NCBI GenBank assembly: GCA_027486675.1
Contig: JAIXOQ010000020.1
Location: 124,001-188,000, forward strand
Source: Pseudomonadota bacterium
GTDB lineage: Bacteria > Bdellovibrionota > UBA1018 > CAIMNF01
Direction of reading: 5' to 3'
DNA: 64,000 nucleotides
Translations under genes and position numbers: made by a program
In this document: positions 29,668-51,124 of the stretch, in pieces
How the letters are laid out: each line of letters starts with the position of its first letter
Position numbering within the stretch: position 1 is the first letter of the stretch
The notes under the pieces: model-generated
Told to the model about the DNA's origin: nothing
Databases searched by the model: none
What the model saw: only the letters and a program-made list of their open reading frames with translations

Positions 29668-30471
29668 ATGATTCGTTATTTGTACTTTGGTGATGTGTTT
29701 GGTCGGCCTGGTCGTGAAGCGGTAGAAGAAGCGGTAGATCGTTTCCGTAAGAGCCACAACCCCGATGTGATGATTGCGAACGTTGAAAATGCGGCGCATG
29801 GAAAAGGGGTCACGCCCAAGATGGCGGAGGAATTCTTTTCTTGGGGTTTTGATGTTCTCACCACTGGCAACCACGCGTGGGACCAGGGTGAAATCATCGA
29901 CACTTTTCGTCATGAGCGCCGTTTGCTTCGGCCGCTCAATTATGGGGATAAAACTGGCCTCTATACCCCGGGTCACGGAAGCGTAGTGATTGAGCCGAAA
30001 TCCAAGCCGGGCGTGAAAGTCGCGGTCATCTTGGTGATGGGCCGCGTATTTATGGAGCCTTTAGATTGCCCGTTTCATTGCGCCAACGCGGAAGTGGAAG
30101 AATTGATCAGCGAGGGCGTTCATAACATCTTCATCGATTTTCACGGCGAAGCCTCAAGCGAAAAGCAGGCATTTACCTACTATTTTGAAGGCCGTGCCAC
30201 CGCTGTGGTGGGCAGTCATCAGCATGTGCAAACCGCGGACGAGCGCATCCTGCAGGGCGGCACTGCAGCGATCACTGATGTCGGTATGTGCGGGGTGTGG
30301 GATTCTGTGATTGGTGTGAAGAAAGAAAATTCGATCAAAAAATTTCTATCGAAGATGCCGCAAAGATTTGAACCCGCCGAGGGCCGCGGTGGTTACGGTG
30401 CCGTTATCATTGACGCAGATGAAACTACAGGGCGTGCGGTAAAGATCGAACGATTCCGGGTGTTAGTTTAG
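29668..30471 (+). CDS. ymdB: YmdB-family metallophosphoesterase (cyclic-nucleotide phosphodiesterase)
   Basis: A 267-residue calcineurin-like phosphoesterase of the YmdB/TIGR00282 family. In Bacillus, YmdB hydrolyses 2',3'- and 3',5'-cyclic nucleotides and affects biofilm and sporulation choice. The di-metal motifs are present: YFGDVFGRPGREAV, NVENAAHGKGVT, TTGNHAWDQGE, FIDFHGEASSEKQAF and VGSHQHVQTADE. A Cys is present near residue 209 in DVGMCGVWDSVIGV. It follows ygfA by 3 nt. Its last 4 bp overlap the convergent S8 peptidase gene, and its last 12 codons are duplicated at 31780-31815. Confidence 0.92.
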   Translation: MIRYLYFGDVFGRPGREAVEEAVDRFRKSHNPDVMIANVENAAHGKGVTPKMAEEFFSWGFDVLTTGNHAWDQGEIIDTFRHERRLLRPLNYGDKTGLYTPGHGSVVIEPKSKPGVKVAVILVMGRVFMEPLDCPFHCANAEVEELISEGVHNIFIDFHGEASSEKQAFTYYFEGRATAVVGSHQHVQTADERILQGGTAAITDVGMCGVWDSVIGVKKENSIKKFLSKMPQRFEPAEGRGGYGAVIIDADETTGRAVKIERFRVLV

Positions 30472-31712
30472 TTCCCCTCTGCAATGTCCCTACAGTCGAT
30501 ATCCATGCGTATGGTGGGTTTGCCGTCGGGTCCGCGTTGGAGGTAGAAGGTGATGGGGAAAGTTCCACCTTTCGATATGATCTGTTTGACGAGGTCTGTT
30601 TGATTGAGTGCGACTAGTTTGGTCAATGAACTTTGCAGGGTCTTGGCGACTTGCCGTCCCTCAGACAACGGTATCGGAAGCGAAGTTGGTGTGTTCGCCT
30701 CCGGGTCTTTCAGTGCACGCGCTCCTTCAACGAGGCCTACAAGATCCTGGTGTTGTACCGTGTGATCGTCAAAGAGATTTTGAATCCCTTCCTTCGCAGT
30801 GAGCTCTGGGTGCTCTGAGAAGCTTTTTGCTAAAGTTCCTGAGACTCGAGGTGCAGCAAATGAGGTGCCTCGGTTTTCAGCATCGTAAGTTCCATTTGCA
30901 GCGATCTGAATCGCGTCCTTTCCGTAGTTCGAGTAGAGCTCTAAGCCATTACCAGCATTGAGTGCAGCGACATAGAGAACGTTGGGGTGGCGGAACATGT
31001 TCTTTTGGATTTCCGTGTCGTCATTTGAAGCTTCGAGATAGTTACCATCATTTCCTGAGGAGATTACAAAAACGGTCTCTTTCTGCTGGGATATGAATGA
31101 ACTCCACTCCTTCCAAAGCCGTCTGTAGGTTCTGAGTTGGGACTTGATGAGTTCGCGTGTGACTATATTTTTCGTCTGTTTGAGATCCTCGCCGACTTTC
31201 TTGAACTGCTCGAAAGGCCAGTACGACAAGGATACGACCCGCACATTTTGTGTGATTAACAGGTTCTTAAGTTCCTGCAGTTGGTCTTTAAAAAGATGAT
31301 GAATAGTGCGCTCTCTAAAGAAAGTGTATGAAACGCCCCGATTGACCTCTGTCCGGAAAACAGAAGAAAAAACTAACCCACCCGGCATTGCCAGTATTCG
31401 CGAATCGCCAGAGTATCGTCGTGCGAGATGGCTCACATTCGAGCCATGGTTGAGGATGAAATTGAAGTCATCCTGTCCCTGGAGGCTTTCAATCCTCTGT
31501 TGGTGAAGTTTCTTAAGCGGAACTCTTTTGCTATCTCGGAGCCACACGTTTGGGTTGTAGGTGATGGTCTCCATCGCTTCCCAGTCTGAGGGCCTGAGAG
31601 CTGCATCATCAGGCGCCACTATAGAATCAATAATCAACAACGTCGACGGTACTGCCCCGCTTTGAGCAGTCGCGGGCACGCTATTGAGCAGCAAGAACAA
31701 AAGACTGAGCAC
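30468..31712 (-). CDS. Exported S8-family (subtilisin-like) serine peptidase, copy 1
   Basis: A 414-residue secreted subtilase. The triad is complete: Asp in LLIID (residue 34 counted from the upstream TTG), His94 in NHGSNVSHLA and Ser289 in RGTSFAAPRVSG. The oxyanion Asn is in ISSGND (226). There is no propeptide of normal length, since the Asp lies only ~12 residues after the signal peptide. I prefer the GTG at 31712 (MLSLLFLLLNSVPATA) to the in-frame TTG at 31727, because GGAAGA sits 7 nt before it and the TTG would add acidic residues ahead of the signal peptide. The C-terminal ~27 residues are identical to copy 2. The stop region overlaps ymdB by 4 bp. Confidence 0.88.
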   Translation of the reverse strand: MLSLLFLLLNSVPATAQSGAVPSTLLIIDSIVAPDDAALRPSDWEAMETITYNPNVWLRDSKRVPLKKLHQQRIESLQGQDDFNFILNHGSNVSHLARRYSGDSRILAMPGGLVFSSVFRTEVNRGVSYTFFRERTIHHLFKDQLQELKNLLITQNVRVVSLSYWPFEQFKKVGEDLKQTKNIVTRELIKSQLRTYRRLWKEWSSFISQQKETVFVISSGNDGNYLEASNDDTEIQKNMFRHPNVLYVAALNAGNGLELYSNYGKDAIQIAANGTYDAENRGTSFAAPRVSGTLAKSFSEHPELTAKEGIQNLFDDHTVQHQDLVGLVEGARALKDPEANTPTSLPIPLSEGRQVAKTLQSSLTKLVALNQTDLVKQIISKGGTFPITFYLQRGPDGKPTIRMDIDCRDIAEGN

Positions 31713-31779
31713 GCCGCAGTCTTCCAAGATGGGGTCAAATAGTCAAGAATTTGAGTTAGGGGTAAATCGTAAGAATTGC

Positions 31780-31815
31780 GCGGTGAAGATCGAACGATTC
31801 CGGGTGTTAGTTTAG
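31780..31815 (+). pseudogene. Duplicated 3' end of ymdB (12-codon remnant)
   Basis: These 36 bases encode AVKIERFRVLV plus a stop, exactly the last codons of ymdB (30436-30471), with one synonymous change (GTA to GTG). No upstream ymdB sequence accompanies it. It overlaps the 3' end of peptidase copy 2 by 4 bp, just as real ymdB overlaps copy 1. It is the scar of a tandem duplication whose unit ran from the ymdB tail through the peptidase gene. Confidence 0.93.
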
Positions 31816-33062
31816 TTTCCCTCTGCAATGTCCCGACAGTCGATATCCATGCGTATGGTGGGTTTGCCGTCGGGTCCGCGTTGGAGGTAGAAGGTCATCC
31901 AGTGCGGGACGAGTGCTTTGGCCTCGCTTTCGATGCGGTCTGTCCTATTGGTTGCTATCAGGTGGCGAAAAAAAATTTCAAGGTTCTTCGCTTTCTGTCG
32001 TTCTGGAGTAGACGGTATCGGAACTGAAGTTGGCATATTTGCTTCTGGGTCTTTTAGCGCACGAGCGCCTTGAACCAGTCCGAAAAGGTCCGGATGTTGC
32101 TGTGTGTGGTGATTCAGGAGCTCATGAACTCCTTCATGCACAGTGAATTCAGGTTTTTCTGAAAATATTTTTGCTAGAGTTCCCGAAACTCGAGGTGCTG
32201 CAAAAGATGCGCCGAGCTTTTCAGCGTCGTACGTACCATTTGCCCCAATTTGAACCACATGAGTTCCATAGTTTGAATAGAGTTCTAGGCCATTGCCAGA
32301 GTTTAAAGCACCAACATAGAGAACGTTGGGGAGGTAGATCATGCCGGCCCGAACATTTGCAGTGCTCGTGGCTTGCACGAGTTTCTTGGAATCGTTACCG
32401 GCTGAATGCACGAAAATAGTATTTTCTTCTTCTTTTGTGAACTGTGTCCACGCTTGCCATAACTTTTTGTGAACACGTAGAACGAGTCGAAGCTTTTCAC
32501 GATCCGTAGGATCTAGATTTTTCTGATACTCTTCGATCAATAAGTTGTAAAGGTTGTGGAATAAGACGGACAAAGAGACAACTCGAATATTTTGTTCCTT
32601 AAAGAAAGTGCTGAGTGTCTGAAAGTACTCCGTAAATTTGTCTGACCTGAGGAATGAGTTGATTTCTTGGATCGGTAAATCATTAAGGCCTAACTCTGAT
32701 AGTGCCATCAATGTATAGAAAAAAATTTGGTCAAATAAATCGAAGCCGGGAATTGCTAGGACACGCGCGTTACCGGCGTAGCGTGTCGCTAGGGTAGTCA
32801 CTAAATCGCCATGGTCGTCTGCCGTGTCGCCCCATTTCTCACCCGCTTCTTGATTGAGCTTCGAGAGGGAAATTTTCTCAAAGACATTCAGCTCTGTTTC
32901 GCGAAGTAGAGTCACTTCAGTCATTGCAGCTCGATCGGAGGATTTAAATGCCGCCAAGTCAGAACTTTGCGGCATATCAATAATCAACAACGTCGGAGGT
33001 ACCGCCCCGGTTTGAGCGGTCGCCGGCGCAACACTAAGCAGCAATGACAACACGCTGAGCAC
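31812..33062 (-). CDS. Exported S8-family serine peptidase, copy 2
   Basis: A 416-residue paralogue of the preceding peptidase, placed in tandem. Asp34 (LLIID), His89 (DDHGDLVTTLA) and the serine (LGASFAAPRVSG) are present, as is the oxyanion Asn (SAGND). The residue before the nucleophile is Ala (GAS) instead of the usual Thr (GTS), which copy 1 keeps. The GTG at 33062 gives a signal peptide MLSVLSLLLSVAPATA; an in-frame TTG lies 15 nt upstream. The central regions of the two copies differ strongly, but the last ~27 residues are identical and the DNA there is almost identical. Confidence 0.86.
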   Translation of the reverse strand: MLSVLSLLLSVAPATAQTGAVPPTLLIIDMPQSSDLAAFKSSDRAAMTEVTLLRETELNVFEKISLSKLNQEAGEKWGDTADDHGDLVTTLATRYAGNARVLAIPGFDLFDQIFFYTLMALSELGLNDLPIQEINSFLRSDKFTEYFQTLSTFFKEQNIRVVSLSVLFHNLYNLLIEEYQKNLDPTDREKLRLVLRVHKKLWQAWTQFTKEEENTIFVHSAGNDSKKLVQATSTANVRAGMIYLPNVLYVGALNSGNGLELYSNYGTHVVQIGANGTYDAEKLGASFAAPRVSGTLAKIFSEKPEFTVHEGVHELLNHHTQQHPDLFGLVQGARALKDPEANMPTSVPIPSTPERQKAKNLEIFFRHLIATNRTDRIESEAKALVPHWMTFYLQRGPDGKPTIRMDIDCRDIAEGN

Positions 33063-33133
33063 GCCGCAGTCTTGCAATGTGGATTGATTATGTCAACAGA
33101 AGGCAGGATCGCCGCGGCCAGCCGCGCTCGGCC

Positions 33134-34259: not shown

Positions 34260-35705
34260 ATGAAAAGGATATGCTTTTTAACCCGAAGGACTTGCTCGCT
34301 CCTGTTGGTCTGTTTCCTTGCCTTTGCCCATTCGCAGGCTATTGCCCATCTCTGTGAGGACATCGTTTTACATAACGATGACAGCGAGAGTCTAAGAACA
34401 AACGTGCTGCGTAGTTTAAACGTGAAATTGGATGAGCTGGCAGTTTCAACGTCTCCGGATTTATCGAATGATTACGCAAAATTTGTTGTCGAAGTGTCGG
34501 ACGGAGTTGACCTAGCGAAACGACAACACGGCGTCTTGAAAAGCGAGTTGATTCGATTGGAGACGGCGCTTCAGCAAGATGAGCAAACCTACAAGGAAAA
34601 ATTTAATCCGGGGAGCAAAGTTCTCTCATTTTTTAATCTGAGTTCACACTCTCAGGACGTTCGAGCAAGGAAGTCAGCAATTTATGAGCTCCAGAACAGA
34701 GTCAGTACGAGGGAGTGGTTTCATAAACAGATGGTCGATATGTCGGTGCGCGCTGAAGACTTAGGAATCATTCTCAACTTTTCAAAGTACATGCGTGACG
34801 CGGATACAGTCTTTTCAGATGTCTCACGCAGATCTCAGTCATTCGGAATTGCTACGGTAGCGGTGCGTGAGCTCGTTGGATCTGGGAAAGAGATTGCGAA
34901 ATCGGTCGAGGAGTTGGGCGCTTTAATTGCGCTGGTGTCGAGACATGAATATGAACCTTCTACTCGTGCACACGTCGCCATTTTCCTATATGAACACGGA
35001 AAAAATACGGAAGCAGACATTTTGAATTTCTTTAAAACCGTCGCTGAGCTGAAGGAATCGGTGAAACGCTCCGTCGCTCTTCGTTTCGCAATACTTTTTG
35101 AGAAGTACAGGATTTTGGTGTCCGACCGCGATGCTTGGATCAAACTTTTTCTTGAGATGGTGAAGGGGTTTCCTTCCGAAGCAATGGAAGAAGATCTGCT
35201 GTATTCGATCTCACACGCTATGGAGCAGCAAGGTAGCCCGCAGGAAGTGAAAGAATTGAGCAAGTTCATACGTGAATGTCATGAGTTGGAAGGCTTAAGC
35301 TACCGAGGCGCAACCATGCTCGCGAATGCTTTTTTTTGGGATAAAAACTTTTCGGATCTGCGGAGCGCAGCATCAGTAGCACGTGCGAATTTTGAGTATT
35401 TTTATAAGACACTCAAAGTTGCCTCAGAAGGCTCTTACATCCTTGCCGCGGGCCTCACACGTATCCGTGGTAATAGTCAGGATCGCGAAGAATTACTCCG
35501 CCTGTATAAGCGGTTTTTTCGAATACAGGGTGTAACAGAAGAGCAGGCAGCGAGCATTGCGGTCGCGATCAAAATTAAAGATGCCTTCGGGGCGGGTCCT
35601 GATCCATTGATGTCGATTTACTTCCACGACTACCAAGCGCCTCGTAGGCGATCGAGCTACGGCAGTACTGGTGGCTTCGATGGTAATATGACCACTCCTT
35701 GGTGA
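34260..35705 (+). CDS. Exported helical protein, paralogue A
   Basis: A 481-residue secreted protein of unknown function and paralogue of the gene at 36698. The signal peptide is roughly residues 1-29 (ends SQAIA-HL). The mature N-terminus carries CEDIVL, followed by a shared STSPDLS block, a long helical/coiled region (about 65-150), FSKYMRDADTVF, and a C-terminal half with HEAT-like helical pairs. The extreme C-terminus is GGFDGNMTTPW, and the same pattern ends paralogue B. It is preceded by tRNA-Ala (145 bp upstream) and followed by the convergent antitoxin gene. No catalytic motif was seen. Confidence 0.75.
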   Translation: MKRICFLTRRTCSLLLVCFLAFAHSQAIAHLCEDIVLHNDDSESLRTNVLRSLNVKLDELAVSTSPDLSNDYAKFVVEVSDGVDLAKRQHGVLKSELIRLETALQQDEQTYKEKFNPGSKVLSFFNLSSHSQDVRARKSAIYELQNRVSTREWFHKQMVDMSVRAEDLGIILNFSKYMRDADTVFSDVSRRSQSFGIATVAVRELVGSGKEIAKSVEELGALIALVSRHEYEPSTRAHVAIFLYEHGKNTEADILNFFKTVAELKESVKRSVALRFAILFEKYRILVSDRDAWIKLFLEMVKGFPSEAMEEDLLYSISHAMEQQGSPQEVKELSKFIRECHELEGLSYRGATMLANAFFWDKNFSDLRSAASVARANFEYFYKTLKVASEGSYILAAGLTRIRGNSQDREELLRLYKRFFRIQGVTEEQAASIAVAIKIKDAFGAGPDPLMSIYFHDYQAPRRRSSYGSTGGFDGNMTTPW

Positions 35706-36522: not shown

Positions 36523-36565
36523 TCAATGAAATCTGAGAAGAATAGAATACGGGATGGTGCTGCGC

Positions 36566-36576
36566 CACCTCCACCA
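36566..36576 (+). repeat. 11-bp direct repeat of the tRNA-Ala 3' end
   Basis: CACCTCCACCA here equals the last 11 bases of tRNA-Ala (34105-34115), 2461 bp away in the same orientation. It could be an attachment-site remnant of an element inserted at the tRNA, or a relic of the duplication that produced the two exported paralogues. It is short enough that chance is a real possibility. Confidence 0.35.
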
Positions 36577-36584
36577 AAAAAATC

Positions 36585-36614
36585 AGCCTTCGGTGAAAGC
36601 CGGAGGCTTTTTTT
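36585..36614 (+). terminator. Intrinsic terminator
   Basis: The stem AGCCTTCGG/CCGGAGGCT (36585-36593 with 36600-36608) has 9 pairs including one G-T, a 6-nt loop and a run of T at 36608-36614. The form is textbook. No plus-strand gene ends just before it, so it may insulate paralogue B or be left over from lost upstream sequence. Confidence 0.8.
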
Positions 36615-36697
36615 GTCCAGTCAGCCCGCCAGATGATTCTGTGGGATCGCCAATGAATTTCTGGGCTCTTGATCATTGTTCGAGTAAAAGTCTCAGA

Positions 36698-38164
36698 ATG
36701 AGATTGTTCAATTGGATACAGTTATCGGGATTGATCTTCTTTTCTTTGCTGATGGTGAGCACCCATTCTAGGGCGGGCATCTGCGAAGATATCGTTCTGA
36801 ACGACGGGGACCATTTCGGTCTGAGTAAAACTGTGCTTAATCCTTTAGGGATAAAACTCAGGGATTTAGAACACTCAACCTCACCTGACTTGTCCATCCA
36901 GCACGAAAAATTCTTAGCAGAAGCATCTTCCGCACACAGCTTTGCAAAACTGCGCGAGGAAGAACTGGGAGAACAGTTGAATGATTTGAAAGAGGATCTC
37001 AGGAAGTTCGAGGACACTTATCAAAAGTCATTCCGACCTCTCAGCAAATTTCTGACTTCCATCGATCTTGGGTCCCATTCTAGCGCCGTTCGTGCAAAAC
37101 AGAAGGCCATCGAAGAGCTTGAAGAAAAGGTATGGACACGGAGATGGCTTCGCGTAGGTTTAGCGAAGAAGTTGGATCGAGCTGAAGATTTGGGCGCAAT
37201 ACTAACGTTCACAAAGTACATGCGTGATGCAGACCTAATCTTCGATGCCCATGCGCTGAGAAATCTGCGACCTGGTGCGACTGCGGTCGCCGTGCGATAT
37301 CTAGTTGGATCTGGGTATGAGATCGGCAAAACGATTGAAGATCTGAGTTCTTTGATCGCTATCACATCCAAGTACGAAAACCGTAATGATCTACCAGTAG
37401 AAGTCGCCCTCTTTCTCCTCTCCGAGGGAAAGTACTCAGAAGAAGATGCGGCTGAGTTCTATCGCGGAGTAACATCCCTGCTTCCGGTTGTGCGCCGCAC
37501 CGCTGCCATCCGCTTCGCGATCCTCTTTGCTAAACATCGGAGTCCGCCACTCGATAGAGATGTATGGATTAAGCTTTTTTTAGATATGAAAAGACAAGAT
37601 TCATCTCAAGAAGATAATGATCTTCTTTACTCGATCTCATTTGCGATGAATAAGTTACGTAGTCCGATGGAAGCGAAAAGGCTGATCCAATACATCCGAG
37701 AATTTTCTAAGTCCCGTCTTCTCAGTCATACTAGTGCGACTCTGCTCGTCAATGCGTTCTATTGGGAAAAAAGCCCTTCAGAACTTCAAACGGTGTCTGA
37801 ACAAGCCCTCGTGAATCGTGATTCCTTTCGGCAGTCGCTTAAAATTGATGCAAGCGGAGCCTGCTTGCTTGCTGCTGGTCTTGCATCTATCGAGGGGAAT
37901 GAGCAGGACCGCAAAGAACTATCTAGTCTCTACAAACGTTTCTTTAGCATCGAGGGGATTACAGAATCGCAGGCAGCAAGCATTGCAGTGGCGATAAAAG
38001 TTAAGGATAAATTTGGCCCTGGTTTTGACCCACTCTTGGCCATGTATTTCCCAGATTATAAGTCTTCCAGTTACAGCAGTGGGGCGGGCTATACCTCCTC
38101 AAGCGATACACCGATTTACGGGGGATTTGGTGGTATCGATGGTAACCCTGGTACGCCTTGGTAA
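36698..38164 (+). CDS. Exported helical protein, paralogue B
   Basis: 488 residues from the ATG at 36698. The frame is open to 36554, but the extra residues are not like paralogue A and would cross the terminator, and 36698 starts a proper signal peptide (MRLFNWIQLSGLIFFSLLMV..., cut near SRA-GI). As in paralogue A it continues CEDIVL, then STSPDLS, a helical stretch, TFTKYMRDADLIF, SQAASIAVAIKVKD and a C-terminus ending GGIDGNPGTPW. Similarity covers the whole length. A Ser/Tyr/Gly-rich insert precedes the tail. The function is unknown and it is likely periplasmic or surface-located. Confidence 0.75.
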   Translation: MRLFNWIQLSGLIFFSLLMVSTHSRAGICEDIVLNDGDHFGLSKTVLNPLGIKLRDLEHSTSPDLSIQHEKFLAEASSAHSFAKLREEELGEQLNDLKEDLRKFEDTYQKSFRPLSKFLTSIDLGSHSSAVRAKQKAIEELEEKVWTRRWLRVGLAKKLDRAEDLGAILTFTKYMRDADLIFDAHALRNLRPGATAVAVRYLVGSGYEIGKTIEDLSSLIAITSKYENRNDLPVEVALFLLSEGKYSEEDAAEFYRGVTSLLPVVRRTAAIRFAILFAKHRSPPLDRDVWIKLFLDMKRQDSSQEDNDLLYSISFAMNKLRSPMEAKRLIQYIREFSKSRLLSHTSATLLVNAFYWEKSPSELQTVSEQALVNRDSFRQSLKIDASGACLLAAGLASIEGNEQDRKELSSLYKRFFSIEGITESQAASIAVAIKVKDKFGPGFDPLLAMYFPDYKSSSYSSGAGYTSSSDTPIYGGFGGIDGNPGTPW

Positions 38165-41288: not shown

Positions 41289-42686
41289 TCAATGGAAGTT
41301 GATCAGCTTATTGCCTGGGAAGAAGGTCTCCATAAATACCCTGGCTGATTCGCGGGTAAAGCCGGATAGGGCCTTATTGATCAGACGTTCCACTGGGATC
41401 GATGGGTCAGCCTTAATTTTAAGCATCGCCTGCACGTATTCATCGGCCATACCGATGATCTCTGCCACTTTAGAAACCGGAGTGCCGCCTGATCTCTCTG
41501 GGAATCCAGCTCCGCCTAAACGCATGTGATGCTGTTCGATTCCTTGAAGCGCAGCTGCAGAAAGAGTGCGAAGTTTTGCTAAGGTCTCAACTGCACGGCG
41601 CGGATGATCACGAAATATTTTTTGTTCTTCAGGAGTTAAAGCAGACTCCTCTTCGGCCTTCATGACTTCTGGTGCATCGGCTAGACCCAGATCATGAAAC
41701 ATGCCCGCAAGTCCAAGGATACGCACTGGATTCTCCCCTTGGATCTTAAATGCATGCCCTAAAACGCCCGCGATCATCGATGTTGCTACGCCATGTTCAT
41801 AGAGCACGGTGTCGCTGAGAAATTGCGACAGAAGTTTGGGCTGACTGCCTTGACGAAATTCATCCATCACGGTCTTCAGATTCCCCACAAACTTTCCCGC
41901 ATACGCAAGATTTGCATCACTGATGCCATTTAATTTTAAGTTCTTCATCACCTCTTCGCCTAAGTTTAGACTTTGAGCGAGTTTGACATCTGTGCCCACT
42001 GATCGAAGCTTCAGAATGGCTGAGGTAATATGATCGCAGTAGGACATGTAGACATCCTGGACCTCGCGACGAATATAGAAGTAGCGCACTCCCTTAGATA
42101 AGTATTGTTTTAGACGCTCGGGGGTGAAAGCTTCGCCGGCATTTAAGAGTTTTAGAAAACGATTCGACGAAAGTCGAACAAACACATCAAAGAGGCATTC
42201 GCTACCAGATAGAAAATCCTCCGCGCGAATGGGCACGTAAGCCGAGTCCACTTGTTGATCTTCTAGCGCTTGTCCCTGAGTTACGATCTCTGTTTTGTCA
42301 AAACTCAGCACAATCGGAGACAAAAGCCGAATCATCTTCTTGTAATCGACGGGCTTCGTGAGGGTGTCGCGTACACCCAGTTTTTTAATGTCCACATACT
42401 GCATCTCTGGCATAGTGGCACCTGCATCTTGCAGCACATAAATCGGGGTTGCTGGGCGGTGCATGTGTGCGCACCTGATAATGGAGATCCATCCCACACC
42501 CGGAGTCCTTGGATTTACGAAAATTCCTGAAAGTGGGCTCCCACTATCTGAAAGAAAGGTTTGCGCCATCGCGCCTTCGTTCGCAGGCAGGATCGGAAAC
42601 GCGGCATGTACGTATCCTAGGCTTAAGGACTGAACAAATGAGTCATCGGGATCAACAACTAACACAGGCCGCATAGAGTTTTGCAT
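41289..42686 (-). CDS. Degenerate receiver fused to an HD-GYP-like output domain
   Basis: A 465-residue signalling protein. Residues ~5-125 are a receiver domain: VLVVDPDDSF keeps acidic residues and TKPVDY keeps the Lys, but the phospho-acceptor Asp is replaced by Asn (GIFVNPRTPGVGW). It is therefore probably not phosphorylated. The middle part (~130-270) is helical. The C-terminal HD domain has VATSMIAGVLG, GMFHDLGLAD and QHHMRLGGAGFPERSGG. HD-GYP enzymes that hydrolyse cyclic di-GMP normally have HHE..DG.GYP; here GGAGFP replaces it, so activity is uncertain. It lies 45 bp downstream of the sigma-54 activator on the same strand. Confidence 0.82.
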   Translation of the reverse strand: MQNSMRPVLVVDPDDSFVQSLSLGYVHAAFPILPANEGAMAQTFLSDSGSPLSGIFVNPRTPGVGWISIIRCAHMHRPATPIYVLQDAGATMPEMQYVDIKKLGVRDTLTKPVDYKKMIRLLSPIVLSFDKTEIVTQGQALEDQQVDSAYVPIRAEDFLSGSECLFDVFVRLSSNRFLKLLNAGEAFTPERLKQYLSKGVRYFYIRREVQDVYMSYCDHITSAILKLRSVGTDVKLAQSLNLGEEVMKNLKLNGISDANLAYAGKFVGNLKTVMDEFRQGSQPKLLSQFLSDTVLYEHGVATSMIAGVLGHAFKIQGENPVRILGLAGMFHDLGLADAPEVMKAEEESALTPEEQKIFRDHPRRAVETLAKLRTLSAAALQGIEQHHMRLGGAGFPERSGGTPVSKVAEIIGMADEYVQAMLKIKADPSIPVERLINKALSGFTRESARVFMETFFPGNKLINFH

Positions 42687-42731: not shown

Positions 42732-44177
42732 TTAATGCCTTGCAGCCGAGCCTGCAGACGGAATGTTGACGCTGTGAATACAGAGTTCTTTCAGTTTGTT
42801 ATGCAGGTGAGATCGATCCATCTTCAGCCGTGCTGCCATGCGGGTCACGTTGCCTTTGGCTAACTCGTATTCACCCTTTAGGAGCGCGTATTCAAAAGCG
42901 CCGACTCGATCATAATAGGATTCCAAGGCTCTTTTTGTTGATCCATCCGTGTCACTGCTGATGTTCCCTTTGTTCGGCTCATAGCCACTGAAACATTTCT
43001 GAACCTTCAGGGGGAGATCGGATACATCAACAATATCTGAGTCACATAGACTATAGAGAACCGCTACCATGTTGTGGAGTTCCCGTACATTGCCGGGAAA
43101 TGGGTATTCTTGAAACGCAGCAATCGCAGCTGGAGAGAAAACGAGCGTTCTTCCACCGGTGCTGAGCAAACTGGAGAAATGGTTCAGTAGATCGGGAATA
43201 TCTTCAACTCTCTCTCTGAGGGATGGGACCTCAATGGTGAATACAGCGATACGCTGGAGAAGGTCATCTTTAAATCGACCTTCCTGGCACAGAGTTTCTA
43301 GATTTTGATTGGTCGCAGAGATCACTCGAAATTTAAGCGGAATCGGCAAGGATGCTCCCAGGCGAAGGATTTCTTTTTCTTGCAACACCCGTAGAAGTTT
43401 CATCTGTATTTCAAGCGGCATATTGCCCATCTCATCAAAATAGATCGATCCACCGTGGGCAGCTTCAAAAAGGCCAAACTTCCCTTGATCAGCTCCCGTG
43501 AATGCACCTTTTTCAAAACCGAAGAGTAGACTTTCGGCAATGGAAGATTGAATGGTCGAGGCATCGACAGAGACAAATGGTTCTAACCCGTCGGCACGCT
43601 CCTGTCGTAAGAGTCGCGCTACAACTTCTTTACCCGTACCGGTTTCGCCGGTGATCAGGATGGGTAGATCCGAAGATCTGAGGCGTTTGATCGTACGTAA
43701 AATATTCTTGGATGCTTCTGAAGAACCAATCCAGCGCACTTGTTTATGATTCGCTGCTATTTCGGTCTCGAGCTGTCGAACTTTTCGTTTGGATGCCCTT
43801 CTAGCAAGTGACCTCTCAATAGCAAGAGCAAGTTCATTCATACCGCTTGTTTTCGGAACGTAGTCCGTAGCGCCCAGTCGCATCGCTTCCTTAACCCGCT
43901 CAAAGTCGGTGTAACTACTAAAAACGACGATTTCTAAATCCTCTTGCAAAGCCTTGGCCCGAGGGATCAGCTCTACTCCTTCATTCGAATGGCGCATCTC
44001 GATATCGGTCAGCATGATTTCAAAACGGTGCTTCTTGAGGAGCACGAGCGCCTCGTCCGAATTCTTTGCTGTGTGCGTGCGTAACCTTCGACGGCCGATC
44101 AGGTCTTTGAGTGCAAGTCGTGTTGATTCTTCATCTTCAACAATGAGCAAGTTCGGAAAATTTGGACCAAATTCCAT
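42732..44177 (-). CDS. NtrC-family sigma-54-dependent response regulator
   Basis: A 481-residue three-domain activator. The receiver (1-120) has EDEE, phospho-acceptor Asp58 (LTDIEMR) and Lys109 (PKT). The AAA+ domain has Walker A GETGTGKE (177-184), the sigma-54-contacting loop GAFTGA (224-229), the Walker B region GGSIYFDEMGNMP and the arginine-finger region. The C-terminal Fis-like HTH is NVTRMAARLKMDRSHLHNKL. It should bind an enhancer and open sigma-54 promoters by ATP hydrolysis. No histidine kinase is adjacent. A sigma-54 promoter lies in the 80-bp divergent spacer next to its start and points at the small gene 44258-44629, its probable target. Confidence 0.93.
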   Translation of the reverse strand: MEFGPNFPNLLIVEDEESTRLALKDLIGRRRLRTHTAKNSDEALVLLKKHRFEIMLTDIEMRHSNEGVELIPRAKALQEDLEIVVFSSYTDFERVKEAMRLGATDYVPKTSGMNELALAIERSLARRASKRKVRQLETEIAANHKQVRWIGSSEASKNILRTIKRLRSSDLPILITGETGTGKEVVARLLRQERADGLEPFVSVDASTIQSSIAESLLFGFEKGAFTGADQGKFGLFEAAHGGSIYFDEMGNMPLEIQMKLLRVLQEKEILRLGASLPIPLKFRVISATNQNLETLCQEGRFKDDLLQRIAVFTIEVPSLRERVEDIPDLLNHFSSLLSTGGRTLVFSPAAIAAFQEYPFPGNVRELHNMVAVLYSLCDSDIVDVSDLPLKVQKCFSGYEPNKGNISSDTDGSTKRALESYYDRVGAFEYALLKGEYELAKGNVTRMAARLKMDRSHLHNKLKELCIHSVNIPSAGSAARH

Positions 44178-44208
44178 GCCGGCAAAATTATCAAACCCGG
44201 AACCCGAA

Positions 44209-44224
44209 TGGCACCTGATTTGCT
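44209..44224 (+). promoter_or_regulatory. Sigma-54 (-24/-12) promoter
   Basis: TGGCAC-N5-TTGCT: the GG at 44210-44211 and the GC at 44222-44223 are exactly 10 nt apart, as required. The six -24 bases and the TTGC box match consensus. Transcription would begin near 44235, leaving a ~23-nt leader with GAGAGAGG before the ATG at 44258. It lies between the divergent starts of an NtrC-family activator and the small gene. Confidence 0.8.
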
Positions 44225-44257
44225 TATGTTCTCGCAGTCGAGAGAGGAAAATACATC

Positions 44258-44629
44258 ATGATTTCAGATGAATTGGGCGAAGGTGTACGGGGTCGAATTG
44301 TTTTTTCGGATCATTTCTGGAGCGTGGTTGGCTGCGAAATCGCAGAAACACTGAACGATGGGGGCTATTTTCACCAGGTGGGTTCGTTTTCGTGGCAACG
44401 GATGAAAGAGGTGATTGAAAGCTCCTCGGATTTGTTTGGCTCCTACATGAAGTCAGTCGTCATCTCGTTGGATGGAATGACGGTCGGAAAAATAGACGCT
44501 TGGTTGGAGGAGACTTTGCCCTGCCTGATGGCAGGAGGTGTTAGGTTGGTGCTGGTCACGTCGAACTGGGCTCTTTATGGGCAAATCAACGAGAAGACTC
44601 GTTCTCAGCCCACCCCAATTTGCGCATAA
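44258..44629 (+). CDS. Small orphan protein behind a sigma-54 promoter
   Basis: A 123-residue soluble protein I do not recognise. It is mixed alpha/beta (GRIVFSDHFWSVVGCEIAET, SVVISLDGMTVGKIDAWLEE, GVRLVLVTSNWALYG). The pattern strand-LDG-helix...GVRLVLVTS-strand resembles STAS-like or receiver-like folds in outline only. The ATG has GAGAGAGG upstream. It is transcribed away from the sigma-54 activator and preceded by a near-consensus sigma-54 promoter, which strongly supports expression under that regulator. It ends 3 bp before the terminator region of the convergent haem operon. Confidence 0.75.
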   Translation: MISDELGEGVRGRIVFSDHFWSVVGCEIAETLNDGGYFHQVGSFSWQRMKEVIESSSDLFGSYMKSVVISLDGMTVGKIDAWLEETLPCLMAGGVRLVLVTSNWALYGQINEKTRSQPTPICA

Positions 44630-44631
44630 AC

Positions 44632-44667
44632 AAAAAAACCCCTGTGGCCAGGTAGTGGCCACAGGGG
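44632..44667 (-). terminator. Intrinsic terminator of the haem operon
   Basis: A perfect 12-bp stem, CCCCTGTGGCCA/TGGCCACAGGGG (44639-44650 with 44656-44667), has a 5-nt loop and runs on the minus strand into seven T residues (44638-44632). It begins 25 bp after the stop of the ureohydrolase gene. On the plus strand no T-run follows, so it mainly stops leftward transcription. Confidence 0.93.
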
Positions 44668-44692: not shown

Positions 44693-44800
44693 CTACTTCT
44701 TTTTAGCTGCCGACTTTTTCTTTTTTGCGCGAGCCTTTTTTGAGGCTTGTCCAGCGCGTTGCTTCATCTTTTGAGTTTTATTCTTACGTCCACGGCCCAT
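44693..44800 (-). CDS. Possible independently translated small basic protein inside the ureohydrolase frame
   Basis: From the ATG at 44800 the same frame encodes 35 residues, MGRGRKNKTQKMKQRAG followed by a tail of Lys, Ala, Arg and Ser. About half the residues are basic. AGGGAG lies at 44813-44808, 7 nt from the ATG, as good a ribosome-binding site as any in the window. The MGRGRK start resembles stand-alone small basic proteins, but I cannot name a family. It may be made both as a tail on the enzyme and as a separate peptide. Confidence 0.45.
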   Translation of the reverse strand: MGRGRKNKTQKMKQRAGQASKKARAKKKKSAAKKK

Positions 44801-45871
44801 GAGTGATCTCCCTGTTTTGTTTAAGTCTAACGATGTTGTGCGAAATCGGCAAACTCCCTGAGAGGCCAGTGCCAGGGCAGAGAGCTTATAGAGCAAGCGC
44901 ATACCCACATTTGCGTCCCATTCCCGCGCAGCTTGATCCCAAGTTGCTGAAGCATCGGTATTGGGAGCAACCTCAACTAAGTCGAAACCTAAGATGTTGC
45001 GTCCGGATTTCGCTAGTTCGATGAGGAGGTATTGAAGTTCTGAATACTCTAGGCCACCAGGCACCGGTGTTCCTGTGTGTGGGCAATACCTTGGATCCAG
45101 CCCGTCGATGTCGATGCTTACCCAAACACTTTCAGGCAACGTATCGATGATTTTTTTGCAGGTTTGAGTAAACGCTACTCTTCCAAGTCGAGCATTTTGA
45201 AGATCTCTATCCCAAAATACATTCACTCGATCGGGCATGGAGCCTAAGTATTGCATTTCCTCATCACAAAAATCCCGGATCGCAACCTGTGTCAAAGTGG
45301 TGAGTTCGGGCACACGCTCAAGCGCATTCCGCATGATGGATGCATGCGAGTCTGTAAATCCCTGATAGGCATCACGCGTATCGGAATGCGCATCGATATG
45401 CAAAATTCCAAAGGAAGCATATTTTTTTCCAAGCGCGGTGTATGCCCCAATGGGTGTGGAGTGATCACCTCCAACCAAGGCAGGAATCTTTCCGTCTGAA
45501 AGAATCTTGGTTACCCGGGCCTCAATTGCAGCATTTAGTTTCCGTGAAAGACTGTTCACTTGATCGACATGCCCCGCCACTTTTTCCGCACGGGCCTCCT
45601 TGTTCCACTGTTCTATCTTTGGATCAGCATCCCACCAAAACATTCCCTTCTTCCATGGGTCTACAACGTCCCAGTCAAAGAGATCGAGTTGTATGCTCGC
45701 TTCTAAAATTGCTTGTGGGCCAAGGCGCGTCCCGCCTCCATATGACGTGGTCGCTTCCCACGGCACCGGTACATAGATGAGTTTTGCATCCTTGTAAGTT
45801 GAAGGAACTCCGTACACACCGTTCTCTAAATCCCCAGGCCCGTTGACAAGATCCGCTTCATTTTGTTTCAT
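44693..45871 (-). CDS. Ureohydrolase (agmatinase/arginase family) with fused basic tail
   Basis: A 392-residue manganese ureohydrolase. The metal motifs are complete: ALVGGDHSTPIGAY, ILHIDAHSDTRDAY and VWVSIDIDGLDPRYCPHTGTPVPGGL, then GFDLVEVAPNTDASATW. These enzymes release urea from agmatine, arginine or formimidoglutamate; the substrate cannot be fixed here, although agmatinase (SpeB) is the commonest. The enzyme is normally ~310-350 residues. After residue ~357 it continues into a 35-residue Lys/Arg-rich tail beginning with Met at 44800, preceded by a perfect Shine-Dalgarno. It is the last gene of the haem operon; the start overlaps the protoporphyrinogen oxidase stop by 4 bp. Confidence 0.88.
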   Translation of the reverse strand: MKQNEADLVNGPGDLENGVYGVPSTYKDAKLIYVPVPWEATTSYGGGTRLGPQAILEASIQLDLFDWDVVDPWKKGMFWWDADPKIEQWNKEARAEKVAGHVDQVNSLSRKLNAAIEARVTKILSDGKIPALVGGDHSTPIGAYTALGKKYASFGILHIDAHSDTRDAYQGFTDSHASIMRNALERVPELTTLTQVAIRDFCDEEMQYLGSMPDRVNVFWDRDLQNARLGRVAFTQTCKKIIDTLPESVWVSIDIDGLDPRYCPHTGTPVPGGLEYSELQYLLIELAKSGRNILGFDLVEVAPNTDASATWDQAAREWDANVGMRLLYKLSALALASQGVCRFRTTSLDLNKTGRSLMGRGRKNKTQKMKQRAGQASKKARAKKKKSAAKKK

Positions 45872-49493: not shown

Positions 49494-50171
49494 TTATTCC
49501 AAATCCAGTTGATAGCCAACGCCACGCACACTGCGGATGGTCGTAGGTTCGGCGGGGTCTTTTTCGATAATCTTTCGAAGCTTCAAAATAAAGTTGTCGA
49601 TCGTACGGGGCGTAGGGTACTCACCCGCAGTCCAGATCGAGTCTAAGATGCGATCTCGGCTCACGACCTTTCCGGCCTCTTCATACAGAAGCTTGAGAAG
49701 GTCGCATTCTTTCGAGGTCAAATCAAAGATCTCACTCCCGCGCCGTGCTTTGTAACGCTCGTAGGAGAACTCAGCTTCCCCGATTCTGACCCAGTCCGGT
49801 AGATCTGGCTGCGGCATGCGCGACAATGTGTTTTTTACTCTGAGTAAAAGCTCACGAAACAAAAATGGCTTTGTGATGTAGTCGAGTGCGCCTGCTTCAA
49901 GGCCCTGCACACGGTCCTCGGGAGATCCCATTGCAGTGAGAAAGAGGATAGGCAGGTTTGGCCTTCGCTTTTGTAGACCTTTTGCGACATCAAAGCCATT
50001 GCCGTCGGGGAGCTGGACGTCAAGGATCGCAAGATCCACGAGATCAAAGTATGCTGCGGCGTCCTTTGCGGTTTTAACCCAATCTACCTGGTAACCTTCG
50101 AGTTGCAAACGTTCCCAGACCGTTGACCCGACGGTGACTTCATCTTCAACAAATAAAATACGAGTGCTCAT
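49494..50171 (-). CDS. OmpR/PhoB-family response regulator in the haem operon
   Basis: A 225-residue regulator. The receiver has VEDE (9-12), the phospho-acceptor Asp in LAILDVQLPDG (about 52), LTAMGSPEDR and TKPF. The C-terminal winged helix has FDLTSKECDLLKLLYEEAGKVVSRDRILDSIW and RTIDNFILKLRKIIEKDP, then IRSVRGVGYQL, the OmpR-type signature. The ATG overlaps the kinase stop... in operon order the kinase (50168-51124) precedes it and they share 4 bp, so the pair is a coupled two-component system between hemL and hemE. It probably controls this operon or a related redox/haem response. Confidence 0.94.
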   Translation of the reverse strand: MSTRILFVEDEVTVGSTVWERLQLEGYQVDWVKTAKDAAAYFDLVDLAILDVQLPDGNGFDVAKGLQKRRPNLPILFLTAMGSPEDRVQGLEAGALDYITKPFLFRELLLRVKNTLSRMPQPDLPDWVRIGEAEFSYERYKARRGSEIFDLTSKECDLLKLLYEEAGKVVSRDRILDSIWTAGEYPTPRTIDNFILKLRKIIEKDPAEPTTIRSVRGVGYQLDLE

Positions 50172-51124
50172 TTAGACTGTGAGCCTTTTTCTTTGCGTAG
50201 GGTGATGCGAACACAGAAAGCAGAATCGACAAAAAATTTTGCATCTCCGCCCATCGATCGAGCTAGTGCTTGAATTAAATAAAGTCCAATGCCACTTCCC
50301 TTGCTTTGGTGCCCACGCTGGAAAAGTGTGCCTAAGTTATCAGGCACTTGGTCCAGGTTCGCGTTGATATGCTTAAAAAGAATCTCAATCCTTCCATCAC
50401 TATCTGACACTGAAACCTGCACATTTGCGGGAGTAGACACACTATACCGTTTGGAATTCTCAAAGATATTCTTGGCAATGATCTCTAGCGCACTTCGATC
50501 CGCAAGCACGTTTGTGCGTAGGTTTTTTGAGACCACATCAAACTGGAGTCGGGCCAGTTCTTCCATCCAAGAATCTAAGGCGACCGGCTTGATCCAAAGA
50601 GCGCCACCGCCCTCGACCCTGGCAAGTTCTAGAGTACGTTCCACCTGGGATTCCAGGCGTTCCACGTCTTCGGACAAACGTCTTGCCCAAGTCTGAAGTT
50701 GCGGATTCTGTGACGGGGATGCGATCACATGATCTTCAATCGCTTCCGACTGCAGGCGTATCCCTGTCAGGGGGGTTTTTAACTCATGCGTGAACGTCGC
50801 AAAAAAAGTCTGAAGACCTCGAGCGCGTTTCTGCTCCCGGATATAGAAGAAAATCAGGACCGCACTACTGAGTGCAAAAAGTGTCGCAAAGGTCGCTGCC
50901 TCCCAAGAAATCATGCGGTTGAATCGCTCGAGGTCTGATGCGACGGACTCTGCCGCAATACCTGCCGACAACTGAAGTTCTGCGGCCGAATTTGCAGTGC
51001 GTTTCAGCAAAACCCCCCACCATGCTGCAAGTCCGACCATCAGAATGACCCATGCAGAATGAAACACGATGAGGAGTCTCAATGTCCGAGCAGGTTTTGC
51101 GGTGAGTTGTCCGAGTTGAGTCAT
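50168..51124 (-). CDS. Membrane sensor histidine kinase in the haem operon
   Basis: A 318-residue kinase. Two transmembrane helices (about 17-38 and 77-95) enclose a short extracytoplasmic loop of ~38 residues, too small for a typical ligand domain. There is no clear HAMP domain. The H-box is TFTHELKTPLTGIRLQSEAI with His near 119, the N-box is NIFENSKRYS, and the G-boxes are VPDNLGTLFQRG and GSGIGLYLIQALARSMGG. With so little periplasmic sequence, the signal is likely sensed in or at the membrane. It starts 10 bp after hemL and overlaps the regulator by 4 bp. Confidence 0.92.
   Translation of the reverse strand: MTQLGQLTAKPARTLRLLIVFHSAWVILMVGLAAWWGVLLKRTANSAAELQLSAGIAAESVASDLERFNRMISWEAATFATLFALSSAVLIFFYIREQKRARGLQTFFATFTHELKTPLTGIRLQSEAIEDHVIASPSQNPQLQTWARRLSEDVERLESQVERTLELARVEGGGALWIKPVALDSWMEELARLQFDVVSKNLRTNVLADRSALEIIAKNIFENSKRYSVSTPANVQVSVSDSDGRIEILFKHINANLDQVPDNLGTLFQRGHQSKGSGIGLYLIQALARSMGGDAKFFVDSAFCVRITLRKEKGSQSK

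Follow-up and report, generated by a model that had tools for sequence, protein, structure and literature searches.

A conserved sigma-54 activator and its divergent promoter in an order of Bdellovibrionota point to a two-activator circuit that has probably decayed in part or been rewired at one locus

We analysed a 64,000-nucleotide stretch of a Bdellovibrionota genome (assembly GCA_027486675.1, contig JAIXOQ010000020.1; hereafter the window), in which a gene for an NtrC-family response-regulator activator of 481 aa (42732..44177, minus strand, ATG at 44177) lies divergent from a 123-aa open reading frame (ORF; 44258..44629, plus strand). The activator was characterized using Pfam, an 18-sequence alignment and a tree. 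Pfam identified Response_reg, Sigma54_activat and AAA_lid_14 domains, while a Fis-type helix-turn-helix (HTH) scored 20.6 bits as HTH_8, just below the Pfam cut-off of 22 bits, and its MDRSHL...KL motif is near-invariant among the aligned orthologs. In the receiver (PF00072), the phosphorylatable aspartate D58 and K109 are invariant across the alignment, and the AAA+ domain retains Walker A (GETGTGKE), Walker B and the GAFTGA motif. With receiver, sigma-54 AAA+ and HTH parts all present, the protein is, judging from its sequence, a bacterial enhancer-binding protein of the NtrC type, and rpoN is present in the same genome. A gene for an HD-domain (HD-GYP-like) protein begins 45 bp past the activator gene in the same direction (window 41289-42686), and was not found at the activator loci of relatives. 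An earlier note on this DNA held that no kinase is nearby, which is accurate for an NtrB-like kinase adjoining the activator, but a histidine kinase/OmpR-type regulator pair is found 6 kb off (49494-51124), the OmpR-type regulator being the kinase's own partner. Elsewhere in the window are two paralog pairs, one subtilisin-like with near-identical C-terminal ends (30468-31727 and 31812-33077) and the other comprising large proteins, unassigned to a family, with a signal-peptide-like start (34260-35705 and 36554-38164).

Between the activator gene and the 123-aa ORF lies the sigma-54 promoter proposed in the earlier note, TGGCACCTGATTTGCT (-24/-12 elements, 44209..44224, plus strand), which matches the pattern TGGCAC-N5-TTGCW exactly (TTGCT here), including the GG-N10-GC spacing. 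The predicted start (~44235), a Shine-Dalgarno-like AGAGAGGA (44241..44248, plus strand) and the ATG of the ORF are well spaced relative to each other. At 0.076 bits/codon, codon usage of the ORF resembles that of the window's real genes (0.045-0.243 for training genes, and no more than 0.062 for 24 spurious ORFs). A strong hairpin with a T run on the minus strand (CCCCTGTGGCCA-ggtag-TGGCCACAGGGG, 44639..44667) is situated between two convergent genes. The ORF beyond it (window 44693-45871), of the arginase/agmatinase family, continues in frame into a Lys/Arg-rich tail of 35 aa (MGRGRKNKTQKMKQRAG...), which has its own AGGGAG and ATG upstream and may be a small basic protein in its own right or a fused extension.

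The promoter motif by itself proves little, because the three exact copies in the whole genome are close to the number expected by chance (one for the reversed control, and ~2-3 by arithmetic). Ten other sites with the looser pattern TGGCNC-N5-TTGCT occur in the genome, some before secretin- or lipoprotein-like genes and others within ORFs; a genome-wide regulon based on this pattern was not firm (11 sites versus 5 in the control) and was set aside. Such near-chance counts, together with the missing enhancer described below, would suit a fortuitous match, in which case the 123-aa ORF would be transcribed otherwise or not at all. However, a divergent sigma-54 site (scoring at least 9/11, located within 400 bp and directed away from the activator) was found upstream of 27 of the 34 orthologous activators with enough upstream DNA, compared with 3/34 on the opposite strand and 3.9% of shuffles, and we consider a fortuitous match highly improbable. 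The promoter was judged real owing to this conservation and to its place in the ~80-bp divergent gap, where we estimate the chance of finding it at ~3e-5, and its retention at 27 of 34 loci indicates that it is also old. What was first noticed from the letters, a sigma-54 promoter divergent from the gene of an NtrC-family activator, was upheld.

Full-length orthologs of the activator (40-51% identity) occur in 35 of the 55 genomes of the order and form one clade (support 100/100). Within it, the window's activator groups with orthologs of family f1, the sister genus (99/99), on a long branch (1.36). As the window's genome is the sole genome of its genus, intermediate steps cannot be shown by a close relative. 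Literature searches gave no account of this locus for Oligoflexia or Bdellovibrionota, and the conserved activator of this order is, as far as we found, undescribed.

What the promoter precedes in relatives bears on the suggestion in the earlier note that the activator is a dedicated regulator of one orphan gene. The gene divergent from the activator in families f2, f3 (G019) and f5 (G016) specifies another sigma-54 activator (hereafter AAA2) of about 300-400 aa, which has no receiver, has an AAA+ domain with GAFTGA and, in complete f2 copies, carries a C-terminal HTH; for the one AAA2 tested in Pfam (L036), the sigma-54 domain, lid and HTH_8 were confirmed. In three genomes (G026, G039 and G020) AAA2 is not directly adjacent and is present a few kb further on. 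At two f3 loci (L154 in G021 and L153 in G023), a strong divergent sigma-54 site (11/11 and 10/11, respectively) faces genes unrelated to AAA2, and the slot can therefore be re-used. On the same side as AAA2, a 16S rRNA gene follows ~360-700 bp beyond it in the four contigs reaching far enough (G022, G016, G048 and G026, the last with inserted genes before the 16S rRNA gene), and 16S-tRNA-Ile-23S operons lie downstream of AAA2 in f2 and f5 genomes (L137 3955-5509, L139 4463-5985, L149 5784-7338, L145 10888-12439). Contigs of f1, and many of f2, stop about where the rRNA operon would begin, which is only suggestive of the same linkage. For a pair of sigma-54 activators, conserved linkage with an rRNA operon is unusual. 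In the window this linkage is lost, the 16S match of the genome being on another contig.

An enhancer-like repeat, TGTNGGG-N4-CCCNACA, precedes the -24 element by 50-140 bp in most relatives; several have two copies of it, about 30-33 bp apart. Given that the motif was derived from loci with the AAA2 promoter, its use at other loci provides an independent test. A combined pattern (a relaxed repeat with TGG-N8-TTGCW 50-111 bp after it) yielded 24 matches across the 55 genomes, compared with one for the reversed control, and 13 of the 24 were away from the AAA2 promoter (L172, L175, L176, L177, L179, L182, L185, L188, L190, L192, L194, L195 and L196). The exact repeat on its own was not enriched (8 sites versus 5 in the control); enrichment appeared only in combination with the promoter. 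Many of the extra pairs precede genes for envelope or secreted proteins and one precedes a histidine kinase fragment; inspection by eye of the genes behind them revealed lipoproteins, secreted proteins, the histidine kinase fragment, a hemerythrin-like protein and a peptide-synthetase-like protein. These 13 loci constitute a candidate regulon of the conserved activator, which in relatives most likely has several targets and would bind the repeat.

In the window, 31 bp (44178..44208) separate the start codon of the activator gene from the -24 element, compared with 87-256 bp in relatives, and the enhancer repeat is absent from this gap. The earlier note had recommended a search for the enhancer in 44100-44205; TGTNGGG-N4-CCCNACA does not occur there, the best repeat near the promoter has 7/12 mismatches, and the combined repeat and promoter pattern had zero matches throughout the window's genome at the stringency used. 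An upstream activator site of the kind found in most relatives is thus missing from the window. The sole local alternative is a 7-bp perfect inverted repeat within the 5' end of the activator gene (AATTTGG-A-CCAAATT, 44159..44173), which is unlike the repeat of relatives, could be due to chance, and is a weak candidate for a substitute enhancer.

These observations weigh on the reading in which a dedicated activator controls one specific small target of new function. An intact activator, a perfect promoter, a gene-like ORF and the absence of homologs are all as such a system would have them. However, conservation of activator, promoter and small gene together, as envisaged in the earlier note, extends to the first two only, the 123-aa gene being found in no other genome searched; moreover, the enhancer-like repeat is missing from the window, and in relatives the pair of repeat and promoter serves many loci. 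Because that pair recurs before other genes, and the promoter precedes AAA2 in relatives, the activator does not appear to be dedicated to one gene, and we regard the dedicated system as improbable.

AAA2 itself has been reduced in several genomes. Complete divergent proteins in f1 are about 190-220 aa and have neither GAFTGA nor HTH, and the three scanned in Pfam had no match there. Their descent from AAA2 is supported by hhalign (probability 96%, E 1.5e-9 as a single-template value, with the match over the lid) and by a remnant of Walker A in L014 (GPKGTRK in place of GPTGSGK). An intermediate was found in G034, where AAA2 keeps Walker A and the lid and has lost GAFTGA and HTH; its sister G025 (support 100/100) has an intact AAA2, and so the loss in G034 is independent of that in f1. 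AAA2 has therefore shrunk on two or more occasions, in f1 and separately in G034, and further degenerate versions occur in G018 and G054. In two f1 pairs, pN/pS was 0.50 and 0.65 for the degenerate protein, compared with 0.12 and 0.18 for the activator, values that are rough as synonymous sites are near saturation; the degenerate protein is fast-evolving, yet apparently still under constraint. The shrunken AAA2 proteins are without GAFTGA and the DNA-binding HTH, with the ATPase site mostly gone too, and their promoter is conserved and divergent from the activator gene. It is conceivable, if rather doubtful, that these proteins (in f1, G034, G018, G054 and perhaps the 123-aa protein) are inactive derivatives of sigma-54 activators that form a new class and have been put to new use, as adaptors or brakes acting on the activator.

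The 123-aa protein occupies the position of AAA2, divergent from an orthologous activator and under a sigma-54 promoter, and Walker A, GAFTGA, lid and HTH are all missing from it. It had no match in Pfam, PHROG or the PDB, and searches of phages, plasmids and 369 genomes from the phylum turned up no credible relative; two candidate homologs, in G306 and G152, were rejected as weak matches with no activator nearby. Comparison with AAA2 and f1 proteins gave no significant similarity by hhalign (E 0.13), hmmsearch (rank 279, with 147 of 2,000 shuffles scoring as high) or global profile alignment (z about 0.5). In a single-sequence fold of low confidence (pLDDT 54), strands and helices follow one another in a way that would fit an AAA+ core, and a Foldseek search with this model found no match. 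We also considered relocation of AAA2 within the window's genome, and discarded it, there being no ortholog among the best eight sigma-54 activator matches and none beside the 16S gene.

On position alone, we take the 123-aa protein to be most likely what is left of AAA2, a view to which we give a little under even odds, rather than an unrelated replacement. In the latter case, AAA2 would have been lost and an unrelated small gene would use the inherited promoter, run by the activator or by another through a different site. Consistent with replacement are the absence of detectable similarity to AAA2 or f1 proteins, the presence of other genes in the slot in G021 and G023, and the rearrangement of the window's neighbourhood on both sides (the rRNA operon is elsewhere, and the HD-domain gene was not found at the loci of relatives). 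However, position, strand, promoter and the graded shrinkage in the sister genus suit descent equally well, and the predicted order of strands and helices, though of low confidence, fits an AAA+ core; we consider replacement a lesser possibility, and somewhat unlikely.

Comparable arrangements of sigma-54 activators have been described. In Rhodobacter (Cereibacter) sphaeroides, the activator FleQ drives an operon encoding a second activator, FleT, and both then act together (PMC7277832). The loci of relatives would resemble this system in that the first activator is predicted to switch on a promoter preceding a gene for a second sigma-54 activator; gene order, promoter and repeat are conserved. 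However, FleQ and FleT are without N-terminal regulatory domains (PMC9542535), whereas the activator of this locus has a receiver, and fleT lies within a flagellar operon, whereas a flagellar link was not found here. Paired sigma-54 activators without an N-terminal regulatory domain are also known from Pseudomonas syringae (HrpR-HrpS, discussed in PMC9542535). AAA2 shares the absence of this domain. HrpR and HrpS differ in acting jointly, as hetero-hexamers on hrpL. To our knowledge, no divergent sigma-54 promoter of the kind proposed here puts either of them under the control of the other. In Myxococcus xanthus, the sigma-54 activator Nla28 has a larger regulon, within which it directly controls genes encoding other activators of this type (PMC9765219), much as the activator of the ancestral module is proposed to drive the gene of another; a shrinking divergent partner is not described there. 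The ancestral module would thus be comparable in logic to FleQ-FleT or Nla28, with membership in neither claimed, and is set apart by its partner's repeated loss of catalytic parts.

Taken together, we favour the interpretation, with more than even confidence, that the locus derives from a conserved sigma-54 circuit of two activators and is now partly decayed or rewired. In the original form of this circuit, an arrangement that persists across the order, a phosphorylatable NtrC-type regulator would bind the upstream TGTNGGG-N4-CCCNACA repeats, often pairs ~30 bp apart, and turn on the divergent sigma-54 promoter of AAA2, while also serving several other promoters. Having ATPase and HTH and no receiver, AAA2 would act as a second tier or as a mixed-oligomer partner of the first regulator. 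In the window's family, the ATPase, sigma-54-contact and DNA-binding parts of AAA2 have been lost, and in the window itself the DNA that bears the enhancer-like repeat in relatives is missing and a 123-aa frame occupies the slot. With an intact activator and a perfect promoter core, sigma-54 dependence of the small gene is still possible, but the activator would need to reach it through another or a weaker site. The perfect promoter core and the gene-like reading frame also argue against simple decay.

Rather than belonging to a new dedicated system, the small gene is thus probably what a two-step switch has left behind, either worn down or replaced. What appeared to be a dedicated regulator with an orphan gene becomes a testable case of a two-activator cascade losing a tier, and for the conserved activator of the order the comparison supplies a specific enhancer motif together with an initial set of candidate target promoters. 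Of most interest is the repeated loss by AAA2 of its ATPase and DNA-binding parts while its promoter was kept: in at least two separate lineages, the conserved promoter would still drive a partner stripped of its catalytic and DNA-binding parts.
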